Under the pieces are notes generated by a model. The model was not told the origin of the DNA, ran no database searches, and saw nothing but the letters and a program-made list of their open reading frames with translations. The position numbers were made by a program, and so were the translations under genes. A DNA stretch of 64,000 bases from Rhodospirillaceae bacterium. Lineage in GTDB: Bacteria; Pseudomonadota; Alphaproteobacteria; Rhodospirillales; Rhodospirillaceae. Shown here in pieces: positions 56,880 to 62,161 of this stretch (position 1 is its first letter; every line of letters starts with the position of its first letter). The stretch spans positions 62,001 through 126,000 of the forward strand of contig CANJSF010000005.1 in NCBI GenBank assembly GCA_947476925.1, read 5' to 3'.

Positions 56880-57707
56880 TCAGGCCACATCAAAAAAGGC
56901 GCGCATCGAGTCAGCCATCAATTCGGCTTCGGCATCCCAAGCGTTGTGGCCAGCCTTGGCGCTGATATCGACAAGAATGGGAAAGGGCACGATTTCTTTC
57001 GCGCGGCGCGTGTTGGGCCCCAGCATTTCGTTGAGCACCAACAACAGTGTCGGCTGCGTCAGTTTTTTGAGCGTGCTTTCGCAATCGTAGTTCAGCGATG
57101 CTTCGGGCCCGAACCAACCCTTGGTTCCCGAACGCAATCGCTCAACAAACATTTCAAAACGGCGCTCGATTGGCGTGCCTGAACTTGGATCCATCACTGT
57201 GTTGCGCCAGATCTTGGGCACGAAATCCGGGTCGCTCAGAATGGGTTGTGGGCCGCCGAACTGCGCTTTCATTTTGGTGCGCTCTTCGGCCGTAAATAGC
57301 GCCAAGCTGGGCAACGAAAGTTTGCGCACCAAATCGGGGCGGGTTGTTGCCAACTCAACCGCGATCAGCGTGCCCGTATGGCAACCCACCACATCGACAG
57401 CACCCTTGCCTTTTGCGCCATACCCCAAGCCATCGAGCATATCGGCCATGGCCCCCGCGTAATCGGGAATCGTAACTGGCACATCAGGCCCATCGGAGCC
57501 GCCGAAACCCGGTGTATCGGGGCACAACACCAGCCGGTCTTCGGCCAAGATGCGCTGAAAGATTTTATATGAGAGGCCCGACATCGGGCTGGGATGAAAA
57601 CATACGACAGGCGTTTTGCTGCCAGGGCCCGAAGCAGGTTGAGCGCACGTGATGTGAACCTGACCGTAACGACCCGCACCGTACGCACGCCAAACTTTCG
57701 CCGCCAT
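56880..57707 (-). CDS. Alpha/beta hydrolase with GCHTG elbow
   Basis: 275 residues from the ATG at 57707, which has GGAGGT right before it. The alpha/beta hydrolase fold is clear: FHPSPMSG (oxyanion loop), DTPGFGGSD, then the elbow VVGCHTGTLIA (106-116) and the late His in AGHNAWD. The usual G-x-S-x-G nucleophile position holds His110, with Cys109 beside it. GYHTG-type elbows occur in some relatives and their chemistry is not settled. It is cytoplasmic and divergent from the 128-residue hypothetical gene. Confidence 0.8.
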   Translation of the reverse strand: MAAKVWRAYGAGRYGQVHITCAQPASGPGSKTPVVCFHPSPMSGLSYKIFQRILAEDRLVLCPDTPGFGGSDGPDVPVTIPDYAGAMADMLDGLGYGAKGKGAVDVVGCHTGTLIAVELATTRPDLVRKLSLPSLALFTAEERTKMKAQFGGPQPILSDPDFVPKIWRNTVMDPSSGTPIERRFEMFVERLRSGTKGWFGPEASLNYDCESTLKKLTQPTLLLVLNEMLGPNTRRAKEIVPFPILVDISAKAGHNAWDAEAELMADSMRAFFDVA

Positions 57708-57885
57708 GCGACCTCCGAACATGAATGGGCTGAGAATGCCGCACGCACCTCGCCCCCGGCAAGCCTGAACGCGTAAGGATCTGGCGTGCGATCAAAGCCC
57801 TTGCTACATTGATGCCGTCACAGAACGTGACGACGATCCGGCAGCAAGCGGGCTCGAAGGTTTCAGAATGAAATGAGAGTTGACC

Positions 57886-58272
57886 ATGACCGATGGTCCC
57901 GACGCAGCCCTTGCGGGCTTAGTTCTCCCAATCAACGATTCTCGACGTGCGACCGAAAGTGTCGCTCAGCAATTGCGACGTAACGCTGTGGCGCTGAGCA
58001 ACGATTTGGTCCGCCGCGAGGTTGAAAAGAAATCCCGCACCAGTATTGATGTACTTGAAGAAAAAGCCATGCGCGAAACGGCCGCACTGGCGGCGGCATC
58101 GGGCACGCCCGAGCAGGCCAAAGCGATGCTGCGCAAAGCCCGCGGCAAGCTGATGAGCGCGGCGGCGAATGGTGCCGATACCGCGACATTAGAAGCCATG
58201 GTGCGTGATTTTGAACGTTTGGCCAAAGTGGCGCAGCAACGCCGCGAGGCAAACAACGCTTTTCGGCCTTAA
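57886..58272 (+). CDS. Hypothetical helical protein, 128 residues
   Basis: The start is the ATG at 57886 (a TTG at 57880 is in frame), with GAGAG upstream. The protein is rich in Ala, Arg and Glu and is predicted to be mostly helical, with a coiled-coil-like part at about 30-125. There is no signal peptide and no recognised domain. It may be part of the transcript of the methyltransferase genes, but 119 bases and a promoter-like site separate them. Confidence 0.6.
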   Translation: MTDGPDAALAGLVLPINDSRRATESVAQQLRRNAVALSNDLVRREVEKKSRTSIDVLEEKAMRETAALAAASGTPEQAKAMLRKARGKLMSAAANGADTATLEAMVRDFERLAKVAQQRREANNAFRP

Positions 58273-58335
58273 CTGCTGTGATTCCAGGTGCTTGCGACCC
58301 TTTCACACGCCGAACACATCATATGAGAGATGCCA

Positions 58336-58359
58336 CAAACGTTTGAATCGTTGTATAAT
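58336..58359 (+). promoter_or_regulatory. Possible promoter with palindrome before the first methyltransferase
   Basis: A perfect TATAAT lies at 58354-58359, 32 bases before the start codon. The perfect palindrome CAAACGTTTG lies at 58336-58345, in the spacer where a repressor could act. The -35 region is weak. Confidence 0.4.
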
Positions 58360-58391
58360 AGACCCAGTTAATTATTCACGGAGCGACCAAC

Positions 58392-59612
58392 ATGCCCGAC
58401 GGCTCAATGCCCCGCTCAAACGCTGCGACGCTGCCCGATATCGACAGCTTCTTTGAGCCCAACCACAACGAAATCGCACGTCAGCGTTACGTCAGCGCCC
58501 TGCGCAAGCATGTCCTGTTCGATAAGCAGGGCGATATGGAGCAGGTTTACAAAACGCAAGTCGCGCCTGCTTACAAAAAAGCAAATGGCCACGTGCCGCG
58601 CACAGGCGTTGAGATTGAGAAGGCCATGACCGGCCAACTTTCATATGAAGTCTACGGATCGATGCGCTACGTCGCCCAAGAAATGGTCTGGGCCTCGGTT
58701 CAAGAACCTGTTGAACGTGTGCTGCCAGACATGATCTCGGTGGCACAACGCGCCGCCTCCGAGCAACCCGCCGGTGGCTCGCTGACCCTTGATCCTGCTA
58801 TGGAAATCCCGCGTTATGTCAGCGCACTCGATGTGCACCTGATTCCAGGCTGCTTCCATAGCGAATTCACACAAAATGACGTCGCCCAAGGTGCCGTCGT
58901 GGCTTTCGGCGGCATGGTGTTCGCCGGGGCCATGGGCTGGCGCCAGGGTTTCAAGGGCTCGTATGGCGCAGTTGGTGAGTCGGTCGCGTATTACCTGAAA
59001 AGCAAATTCCCGGATTTCAAACCGCGCCGCATTCTCGATATGGGCACGTCATCAGGCAAAAATTTGCTGCCCTATGCGGACATTTTCCCAGAAGCGGAGT
59101 TGTTCGGCATCGATGTGGGCGCGCCGTTGCTACGCTACGGGCATGCCAAAGCTGAAGCGGTTGGTATTCCTGTGCACTACAGCCAACAAAACGCCGAGGC
59201 GACCAATTTCCCGGACGGTCACTTCGACCTGATTGTTTCCAGTTTCTTCTTCCACGAAGTGCCAGTGAAATCGACCCGGAAGATCTTGGCGGAGTGCCAT
59301 CGCTTGTTGGCCAAGGGCGGCCTGATGGCGCACATGGAATTGCCACCGCGCAAAAATTGCGATGCGTATCTCAACTTCTATTGGGATTGGGACACACTCA
59401 ATAACAATGAGCCCGCCTATTCTGCGTTCCGCGCCTCAGACCCCGTTGCCCTCTGCACCGACAGTGGCTTTTCCGCCGCAACCGGATACGAGATCACCGT
59501 CCCCAATCGCGCTTCATTTGGCGACGCCAATTTCGCTAAGTTTATGAAGGGCGAAATGCCCGCTCCTCGTCATGGCGTTGGCGGGTGGTATATCTTTGGC
59601 GCACAGAAATAG
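58392..59612 (+). CDS. SAM-dependent methyltransferase with N-terminal extension (copy 1)
   Basis: 406 residues with GGAG before the ATG. The first ~200 residues form a conserved domain without a known family (DIDSFFEPNHNEIARQR, then VERVLPDMISVA and DVHLIPG). The class I Rossmann domain follows: motif I ILDMGTSSGKN (214-224), acidic IDVGAP (240-245), QQNAEATNFPDGHFDLIV and FHEVP. The Gly-rich loop (GTSSG) is not the standard GxGxG. The second copy follows 103 bases on. The acceptor is unknown. Confidence 0.85.
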   Translation: MPDGSMPRSNAATLPDIDSFFEPNHNEIARQRYVSALRKHVLFDKQGDMEQVYKTQVAPAYKKANGHVPRTGVEIEKAMTGQLSYEVYGSMRYVAQEMVWASVQEPVERVLPDMISVAQRAASEQPAGGSLTLDPAMEIPRYVSALDVHLIPGCFHSEFTQNDVAQGAVVAFGGMVFAGAMGWRQGFKGSYGAVGESVAYYLKSKFPDFKPRRILDMGTSSGKNLLPYADIFPEAELFGIDVGAPLLRYGHAKAEAVGIPVHYSQQNAEATNFPDGHFDLIVSSFFFHEVPVKSTRKILAECHRLLAKGGLMAHMELPPRKNCDAYLNFYWDWDTLNNNEPAYSAFRASDPVALCTDSGFSAATGYEITVPNRASFGDANFAKFMKGEMPAPRHGVGGWYIFGAQK

Positions 59613-59642
59613 CGTCGAAATTGGTCGACCCCTTGGCAAGTT

Positions 59643-59656
59643 TTGACGTCCGTCAA
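59643..59656. promoter_or_regulatory. Inverted repeat before the second methyltransferase
   Basis: TTGACG-TC-CGTCAA is a 14-base inverted repeat, 59 bases before the start codon and just before the hairpin that covers the ribosome site. It could be an operator. Confidence 0.35.
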
Positions 59657-59680
59657 GGCTGAGGTGCGACGAACAGCGGC

Positions 59681-59715
59681 AAAATCCCTCTCCGAACAGC
59701 ACGGGGAGGGATTTT
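59681..59715 (+). promoter_or_regulatory. Hairpin that holds the ribosome site of the second methyltransferase
   Basis: AAAATCCCTC (59681-59690) pairs fully with GAGGGATTTT (59706-59715), and further inside CC pairs with GG. The strong site GGGGAGGG (59703-59710) lies in the right arm, and the stem ends on the base before the ATG. Folding would hide the ribosome site. The T-run also makes it terminator-like. Confidence 0.6.
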
Positions 59716-60930
59716 ATGTTAGACACACCCATTACGCCCGCAGAAGCACATCAGCTTCGCGACATTGATTCGCTCTATAGCCCTACTCACGACGAAATCG
59801 CCCGGCAGCGGTTCGTCAGTGCTGTGCGAAAACATGTTCTCGTCGATAAGGCCGCTGAAATGAAAGCTGCCTACGACCGCGAGGCAAAGCCCGCCTACAA
59901 ACGCAGACACGGGCACGCACCCAAGGATCACGAACAGATCCGCAAGGCGATGCTGAACGACATGACCTTCAAGGTATTTTCGAGTTTGCGCCTCAATGCC
60001 CAAGAGCTGAGCTGGACCTCGGTGATGGACGGCGTGGAGCGCGTCCTACCCGACATGATCGAGGTGGCCCGTACGGCAGCGCGTCTCAATCCCGCTGGCG
60101 GCTCGGTTAAAACCGACCCTGCATTCAAGCCGCCGGCGTATGTGGCCAACGTCGACGTACATCACATCCCCGGCTCATTCACAGCCGAGGTGGCCAAAGA
60201 TGATGTGGCCATCGGTGCCGTGGCGCACTTTGGTACAAAAGTTTTTGCCGGTGCCCTACCTCATCGCAAGGATAACCCAGGCGACGTGGCTCAAACCATC
60301 GCGCACTACTTGAAGTACAAGCATCCTGACTTTAAGCCCAAGCGCATTTTGGATTGCGGCACTACGGGCGGCAAGAACTTGGCGCCCTACCTTGAAGTGT
60401 ATCCCGACGCCGAGTGTTACGGAATCGATGTGGCTGCTTCGGCTTTGAGGTACGGGCATGCTCAGTGGGAATTTAAGGGCAAGCCCCTGCATCTGTCGCA
60501 GCAAAATGCCGAGGCCACCAACTTTCCCGATGGCTTCTTCGATTTGGTCGTCTCGTGTTTCTTCTTCCACGAGATTCCTGTGGCGACCACAAAGAAAATC
60601 TTACGCGAGAACTACCGCTTGTTGTCTAAGGGCGGGCGCTTGGCGCATCAAGAATTGCCGCCAAATTGCGAAGTAGACCCCTATTACGCGTTCTACCTCG
60701 ACTGGGACAACTACTACAACTACGAGCCGGACTACGCCGATTACCGAAGCCAAGTTCCTAAAAAGCTATGCGCGGAGGCAGGCTTTAGCGCCTCGTCATG
60801 CTCGCACGTTTTCATTCCCAGCTGGCGATCATTTGGAGACGACAATATGCGTCGCTTCGTCGAGGGCAAGGTCCCCCCGCCAACGCATGGCAACGGTGCA
60901 AGTTGGTTTGTCTTTGAAGCGATGAAGTAG
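59716..60930 (+). CDS. SAM-dependent methyltransferase with N-terminal extension (copy 2)
   Basis: 404 residues, aligned with copy 1 over the full length. The shared features are the DIDSLYSPTHDEIARQR start, VERVLPDMIEVA, DVHHIPGSF, motif I ILDCGTTGGKN, IDVAAS, QQNAEATNFPDGFFDLVV and FHEIP. The two are clearly tandem paralogues that have drifted apart, perhaps acting on two steps or as a heterodimer. The Rieske oxygenase gene ends two bases away on the opposite strand. Its translation start is inside a hairpin. Confidence 0.85.
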   Translation: MLDTPITPAEAHQLRDIDSLYSPTHDEIARQRFVSAVRKHVLVDKAAEMKAAYDREAKPAYKRRHGHAPKDHEQIRKAMLNDMTFKVFSSLRLNAQELSWTSVMDGVERVLPDMIEVARTAARLNPAGGSVKTDPAFKPPAYVANVDVHHIPGSFTAEVAKDDVAIGAVAHFGTKVFAGALPHRKDNPGDVAQTIAHYLKYKHPDFKPKRILDCGTTGGKNLAPYLEVYPDAECYGIDVAASALRYGHAQWEFKGKPLHLSQQNAEATNFPDGFFDLVVSCFFFHEIPVATTKKILRENYRLLSKGGRLAHQELPPNCEVDPYYAFYLDWDNYYNYEPDYADYRSQVPKKLCAEAGFSASSCSHVFIPSWRSFGDDNMRRFVEGKVPPPTHGNGASWFVFEAMK

Positions 60931-60932
60931 AG

Positions 60933-62066
60933 TTATTCTGCCGCTGCACGGGCCGTCGAATTGGCCCCTACCATCGGAACTGCATCGAGCGCCCAGCCCT
61001 TATTGCTGCGTCGCGCGGGTGACGGTATGGCAAACTTCTTGTTTTCGCCGGCAGCCAAGAGCGCGTCTACATCCATCAGCCAGCCCTTGGCCTGCCACTG
61101 TGCCTGCCATTCGCGGTAGCGCACGATCACTCGGTCGGCGGGCACGATGACTTCTTCGGTCGAGCTTTGAGGCACAAAGAAAGGCTGGACGCGCTCCATC
61201 ACCACGCGGTCTTGGTCCATCACCTCACGTGTGCGCACATCCATGCGCGCATCGCCCGACGGATCGAGCGCGAAGTTGCGCGCCTGCAAGAAGAATTTCT
61301 GGGTATGATGGGCATCAACCGGGGTGTTGAACGTATATTGCCGCGACCAGGCCACAGGACTGAACTGAATCCAGGTGTAAGTTGTGGTCGCACCATGATG
61401 GCCAGCCTCGGCTTCGGTTTGAAAACCGCCGCCACGCACTTCTGCTTTGACGGTGCCTGCCGCACCTGGCGTCACAAACTTGGTTTTGGTGCCCGTGCCC
61501 CAATCACGCTCGATCAGTTCAATTTGCGGCACGCTGTAATCATCACGTTCGCCTTGAAAGCCCATGACCGGATGGACAAATTCGGTATGCGCGGGGTCCA
61601 GTGTGTTCTCGACGCCACGCAATGTGTTCACCCTCCATAGCGTCGTCATCAAGCTCACGCGCCAGGCTGGGTTGTCCCACTCGGGGATGTCGATAATCGG
61701 TGGGCGCTCGGCCTCGGGCAGGTCGCCCAGAAAGGTGAAAACAAGGCCATATTTTTCCTGCGTCGGATAACTATCCACCTTTGCGCGCGCCGGAATTTTA
61801 CCGTCTTTGCCCAACGAGGGGATTTTGGTGCATACGCCATCGGCCCCACCGAACTGCCAGCCATGATAGGGGCATTCGATGTTATCGCCCTTCACTTTGC
61901 CATGGGCTAACGACGCGCCGCGATGAATGCAGGTGTTGGACAAACAATGGACCTTGCCTTTGCTGTCGCGAAATAACACGAACTCTTGGCCCAGCATTCT
62001 GACATGCTGGGGCTGGTCGGTGACCTTCGCGGCCTCGGCGGCGGCATACCAAAAATTGATAAACAT
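60933..62066 (-). CDS. Rieske non-heme iron oxygenase, large subunit
   Basis: 377 residues from the ATG at 62066 with GGGGAG upstream. The Rieske 2Fe-2S site is complete: Cys46, His48, Cys65 and His68 (CIHRG ... CPYHGW). The mononuclear iron site is NTLDPAHTEFVHP with Asn154, Asp157, His160 and His165. The length and start FINFWYAAAEAAKV put it in the PaO/vanillate demethylase-type group, which works as a single subunit with a separate reductase. No reductase or ferredoxin gene is nearby. It would hydroxylate or demethylate a ring or sterol-like compound. It is convergent with the methyltransferases. Confidence 0.9.
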   Translation of the reverse strand: MFINFWYAAAEAAKVTDQPQHVRMLGQEFVLFRDSKGKVHCLSNTCIHRGASLAHGKVKGDNIECPYHGWQFGGADGVCTKIPSLGKDGKIPARAKVDSYPTQEKYGLVFTFLGDLPEAERPPIIDIPEWDNPAWRVSLMTTLWRVNTLRGVENTLDPAHTEFVHPVMGFQGERDDYSVPQIELIERDWGTGTKTKFVTPGAAGTVKAEVRGGGFQTEAEAGHHGATTTYTWIQFSPVAWSRQYTFNTPVDAHHTQKFFLQARNFALDPSGDARMDVRTREVMDQDRVVMERVQPFFVPQSSTEEVIVPADRVIVRYREWQAQWQAKGWLMDVDALLAAGENKKFAIPSPARRSNKGWALDAVPMVGANSTARAAAE

Positions 62067-62161
62067 GAGTGCTCCCCTGATCACAACACCTATTGTACGG
62101 TGCTCAGAACCCGACAGACTTCCGCTATAATAGCATCTCAGTGAGTTTTTGAACCCCCGCT

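Follow-up and report, generated by a model that had tools for sequence, protein, structure and literature searches.

A terminator-like hairpin that may also mask the ribosome-binding site of a paralogous methyltransferase gene in a Rhodospirillaceae bacterium

Within a stretch of 64,000 nucleotides from a Rhodospirillaceae bacterium (the window), two methyltransferase-domain genes follow one another on the same strand, and a strong predicted hairpin ends at the base preceding the start codon of the second. The reading we lean towards, if only by a modest amount, is that this is a terminator-type hairpin placed after gene 1 which, wherever transcription continues into gene 2, also masks the ribosome-binding site of that gene and so keeps its expression constantly low. 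RNA polymerase leaving gene 1 would make the hairpin and then UUUUAUGUU, and would stop there in part. In RNA extended past that point, the hairpin would hide GGAGG and end at position -1 of the AUG, so that ribosomes would seldom start and the level of gene 2 would stay constantly low compared with gene 1. Termination, reduced translation and co-transcription with gene 1 are all steps that we infer from sequence. The features concerned are the following:

58392 to 59612, plus strand: gene 1, a class I SAM-dependent methyltransferase-domain protein of 406 aa (Pfam Methyltransf_25, E = 5e-19).
59643 to 59656, no strand assigned: inverted repeat TTGACG-TC-CGTCAA, found once in the genome; a repeat of this sort turns up in 5-16% of shuffles.
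59681 to 59715, plus strand: hairpin with a 14-bp stem and the loop AACAGCA, built as A-tract, GC stem and T-tract TTTTATGTT, with the gene 2 Shine-Dalgarno sequence in its 3' arm.
59705 to 59709, plus strand: GGAGG, the Shine-Dalgarno core, entirely in the 3' arm of the hairpin and 6 bases before the ATG.
59716 to 60930, plus strand: gene 2, a methyltransferase-domain paralog of 404 aa (Pfam Methyltransf_25, E = 6.7e-15), its start aligned with the starts of homologs.

Gene 2 is 53-54% identical to gene 1, whose orthologs are 73-90% identical and occur in all four congeners. In an alignment with three relatives the N-terminus of gene 2 reads MLDTPITPAEAHQL, against a majority of MxxAPLTPxEAHxL, and upstream of gene 2 there is no in-frame ATG, GTG or TTG before a stop; the start codon at 59716 is therefore credible. 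Neither a ready-made scan, which covers the sigma-70 consensus only, nor a looser scan found a promoter-like site between the two genes, so gene 2 mRNA likely comes from read-through out of gene 1. Upstream of gene 1, the ready-made scan lists a TATAAT-like box (58330-58359); by eye, the four congener orthologs (L015-L018) have a TATCAT box at a comparable position, and these boxes look like a kept promoter.

The hairpin itself reads AAAATCCCTCTCCG-AACAGCA-CGGGGAGGGATTTT, with the ATG directly 3' of it at 59716. The preliminary description had given it a perfect 10-bp stem with two more GC pairs inside: the outer ten pairs are indeed perfect, while inside them lie one U-G and three G-C pairs, making a continuous stem of 14 bp (13 Watson-Crick pairs and the U-G) around a 7-nt loop. 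That the stem ends one base before the ATG holds as described, leaving zero spacing to gene 2. Folding prediction gives -21.2 kcal/mol for the hairpin alone and -15.5 kcal/mol for its GC-closed 9-bp part, a stable GC-rich hairpin of the kind looked for in an intrinsic terminator. In a 55-nt context the value is -23.9 kcal/mol (z = -5.43), equalled by none of 200 shuffles, and the best fold of the local RNA is the same stretch 59681-59715. When the 103-nt spacer was shuffled 5000 times with dinucleotides preserved, the longest stem had 12 bp and none reached 14 bp. Both exact arm patterns occur nowhere else in the genome, and a looser CCCTC-type hairpin pattern has no other site in a 640-kb sample of it, which speaks against a repeat element. 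Of the curated models in Rfam 15, none matched 57700-61000 even with E values up to 1 allowed, so the hairpin is not recognised as a known riboswitch, leader or RNA family. A direct 8-base repeat, CGAACAGC, is present at 59670-59677, before the hairpin, and at 59693-59700, across its loop; a direct repeat of this kind arises in 4.6% of shuffles.

The ribosome site of gene 2 lies where the preliminary description had it, buried by the stem: GGGGAGGG occupies 59703-59710, GGAGG begins at 59705 with 6 bases between it and the ATG, and all of it is paired in the prediction. This would be the only good Shine-Dalgarno sequence that gene 2 has. To put the masking on a scale, we computed the cost of opening the last 16 bases preceding each start (the opening energy) in 640 kb (17% of the genome), where our own hexamer model called 581 genes; two near the sample ends were left out, giving 579 scored starts. 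Gene 2 stands at 20.1 kcal/mol, rank 2 of 579 (mean 6.6, sd 3.6), so that the predicted pairing of its Shine-Dalgarno sequence goes far beyond what is usual at the starts of this genome. Among 36 other methyltransferase-family members with loci, the maximum was 12.8 versus 20.1 for gene 2, a comparison that leaves out 22 of the 32 own-genome family matches and four other listed matches, which have no locus, and that scores L012 from a GTG start and gene 1 (L002) from an internal ATG five codons inside. The closest relatives of gene 2 have ordinary, unmasked Shine-Dalgarno sites. In a 400-kb listing one further hairpin reaches a called start, extending 3 nt into it (C5 102297, minus strand); it is weaker, at -14.6, and has no T-tail. 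Masking of its ribosome site by the hairpin probably keeps the output of gene 2 low.

In shape the hairpin resembles the terminators of this genome, where intergenic hairpins often consist of an A-tract, a GC stem and a T-tract (the 400-kb listing holds 49 intergenic ones among 169 hairpins counted strand-wise); its own-genome lookalikes include AAAAACCCCGCC...GGCGGGGTTTTT. We took a census of hairpins of -9 kcal/mol or better in 640 kb of the same genome. Hairpins at least equal to ours in both stability and T-score make up 20 of the 72 found within 80 nt past stop codons (ours included), as against 5 of 1758 within genes, which groups ours with the terminators, among the weaker ones as judged by its T-tract. 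That T-tract, TTTTATGTT, is short and interrupted by the ATG. Its T-score of 2.29 is matched by 25 of the 72 post-stop hairpins (ours included) and by 62 of the 1758 in genes, and it falls just under the limit of 2.3 that we required of strong terminators, of which we listed 33. The ready-made terminator scan, which named 5 sites in the region versus 4.7 in shuffles, does not list the hairpin. The pairing of an A-tract with a T-tract can weaken or strengthen termination, and the two tracts pair in this hairpin.

Position also bears on termination. The 5' end of the hairpin lies 68 nt past the gene 1 stop codon, farther than most post-stop hairpins in the 400-kb listing. The E. coli terminator tR2 reaches maximal efficiency beyond about 30 bp from the stop codon, according to the accessible text of the source (PMC4824070); on those data a ribosome terminating at the gene 1 stop, 68 nt away, should not disturb the hairpin. 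It is not unusual in this genome for a terminator to lie near the next gene, since 7 of the 33 strong ones lie 21-54 nt before the next same-strand start; our hairpin is the closest. Three strong terminators of the same genome (G000:C2:112017, C2:153460 and C2:104605) stand 21-24 nt before the next same-strand called start, and it is possible that these are attenuators or that the starts were wrongly called. Of the three roles suggested in the preliminary description, a terminator reused as leader fits best, given the terminator-like shape and the place 68 nt after the gene 1 stop.

We looked for a structure that could relieve the hairpin and found no antiterminator: forbidding the hairpin costs 22 kcal/mol, its arms gain no alternative pairing in the minimum-energy fold, and their best upstream partners reach only -7.9 and -9.6 kcal/mol. 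An attenuator with a built-in antiterminator is not supported, as no mutually exclusive upstream structure was found. It is this result that favours a constant dampener over a switch; no built-in switch, whether antiterminator or temperature, is visible in the predicted folds. Control from outside would be another matter. The hairpin could serve chiefly to mask the ribosome site until a trans factor (a small RNA, an RNA-binding protein or a helicase) opens it, with no real termination, and the extreme predicted occlusion, the short and broken T-tract, the absence from the ready-made terminator scan and the direct repeat (one copy at 59670, the other at 59693 in the loop region), which could be a binding site, all suit such a regulated switch. 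We consider it unlikely, though still to be reckoned with, as the Rfam search of 57700-61000 gave it no family, as it has no alternative structure that we could find and is unconserved among the family members examined, and as 8-mer direct repeats come up in shuffles at the rate given above.

Other possibilities turn on where gene 2 came from. In the stretches fetched from congeners the common gene order is hydrolase, small ORF, gene 1, Rieske oxygenase, modA/modB. In all four, the convergent Rieske gene comes directly after gene 1, the aligned ends being at most some 245 bp apart and gene 2 missing, and none of the congener matches at E of 1e-100 or below falls within the gene 2 clade. Gene 2 clusters instead with single genes of two other genomes, G006 and G028 (68 and 67% identical; support 97/93), and next with genes of G020 and G036 (100/100), in both of which a gene 2 relative stands before, not after, a gene 1 relative. 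Scanning an alignment of the gene 2 relatives across the genome contigs gave five loci, the same ones already found in G006, G028, G020, G036 and G004. From this clade and these gene orders, gene 2 is a member of an old group of paralogs, and among the genomes seen only this one has it behind gene 1.

The leader has no homolog in 40 other genomes either: 28 of the 41 genomes searched matched at E up to 1, the self match at 1.9e-71 and the next best at 0.068, and short. No relative examined has the gene 1/gene 2 junction. The preliminary description had held that lack of the pairing in relatives would speak against it, and the pairing is in fact absent from those seen; these belong to other genera, and the congeners have no gene 2 at the site. 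The arrangement of hairpin and gene 2 looks lineage-specific. In the congener with the closest gene 1 (G002, 90%), the gap of about 245 bp between gene 1 and the Rieske gene (L065:9676-9921) holds an imperfect palindrome, CCTTCTC...GAGAAGG, with a T-run. The methyltransferase family is expanded, since a single genome of 3.8 Mb gives gene 2 32 matches with E values of 0.001 or less, and its genes repeatedly lie beside Rieske/VanA_C oxygenase genes (60933-62084, minus strand, here; L065, L066 and L068 elsewhere); 16 kb of G002 contain three Rieske-type and three methyltransferase-type genes. For the Rieske protein at 60933-62084, the best NCBIfam match is 4beta-methylsterol monooxygenase, far under its cut-off (94 of 600 bits).

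This setting is also compatible with a terminator and nothing more, left behind by the rearrangement that placed gene 2, whose own transcript would start inside the hairpin and so free the Shine-Dalgarno sequence. The terminator-like shape, the lack of gene 2 at the site in four of four congeners and CAAAAT at 59679-59684, which by eye matches a -10 box at 4 of 6 positions, all agree with this, but CAAAAT has no -35-like partner and neither the ready-made scan nor the looser one (8 of 12 or better) gave a promoter with its -10 there, and we rate it somewhat below the trans-acting control described above. Less likely again is a lineage-specific dual gate that arose when gene 2 came between gene 1 and the Rieske gene, ending gene 1 transcripts and silencing gene 2 until a trans factor opens the hairpin, with the paralogs made in alternative conditions.

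We give still less weight to translational coupling, in which ribosomes translating a short leader frame (34 codons from GTG 59664) would traverse the hairpin and free the ribosome site. The frame is the same as that of gene 1 beyond its TAG; it is open across the hairpin and beyond the ATG and has AAGG 5 bases before its GTG, but it is weak, a stop-free run of 34 codons is not rare, a ribosome in it would cover the gene 2 ATG too, and relatives do not have it, since they do not have the junction. Nothing speaks positively for the translation coupler of the preliminary description: the stop codon of gene 1 lies 68 nt short of the hairpin, which this weak frame alone would traverse. An RNA thermometer opened by warming, also among the original suggestions, can be dismissed almost entirely: a hairpin over the Shine-Dalgarno sequence beside the AUG is in the right position for one, but it has no Rfam thermometer match, and in predictions followed from 4 to 90 C it showed no marginal stability or melting (Shine-Dalgarno pairing 1.000 at 4-42 C and 0.993 at 80 C), so that it is predicted to stay closed throughout the growth range and could not sense temperature unaided.

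The inverted repeat noted before the hairpin, TTGACGTCCGTCAA, is where it was said to be, at 59643-59656, with arms of 6, a spacer of 2 and 24 bases from its end to the hairpin at 59681. When the 68 nt preceding the hairpin are shuffled, 6-base arms arise with a spacer of 0-2 in 5% of cases and with a spacer of 0-8 in 16%, and the RNA containing it (59636-59662) folds as a 9-bp hairpin of -9.8 kcal/mol. The pattern TTGACGNNCGTCAA has no second site in the genome, and being single there it is ruled out as a regulon operator. The repeat is much less remarkable than the hairpin and may be due to chance, and we assign it no function.

Returning to the reading that we prefer, a hairpin that terminates and masks at once, several known systems come close; what we say of them follows the accessible text of each source. 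Naville and Gautheret (2010) proposed bifunctional attenuators that terminate and sequester the ribosome-binding site, with 18 E. coli candidates less than 15 nt from the start codon, none demonstrated by then (PMC2965389). Theirs share with ours a terminator hairpin near the start codon and an expected dual attenuation of transcription and translation, but they lie between a promoter and the first gene of an operon, whereas ours lies between two genes and has no antiterminator that we found (PMC2965389). The pT181 repC attenuator likewise is a terminator hairpin, one whose 3' half contains the ribosome-binding site, and controls transcription and translation at once; it is switched by antisense RNA via an antiterminator, neither of which was found here (PMC5435934). 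The rimP terminator lies 4-130 nt before the gene start and may include the ribosome-binding site, but the rimP leader is conserved and belongs to one housekeeping operon, while ours is a single lineage-specific instance with no Rfam match (PMC2965389). In the vmlR leader of Bacillus subtilis, a terminator and a Shine-Dalgarno-sequestering hairpin lower expression at two levels; these are separate (SL-3 and SL-4) and antibiotic-induced, whereas here one hairpin would do both (PMC9226507).

By analogy with these systems, the hairpin is probably a compact member of a class of control elements already known and not a new mechanism, and the general view is left unchanged by this case. If our reading is true, it would be a clean natural terminator whose 3' arm doubles as a ribosome-binding site, with zero spacing before the ATG and without an antiterminator, and would illustrate how an adjacent terminator sets a newly placed downstream gene to low expression.
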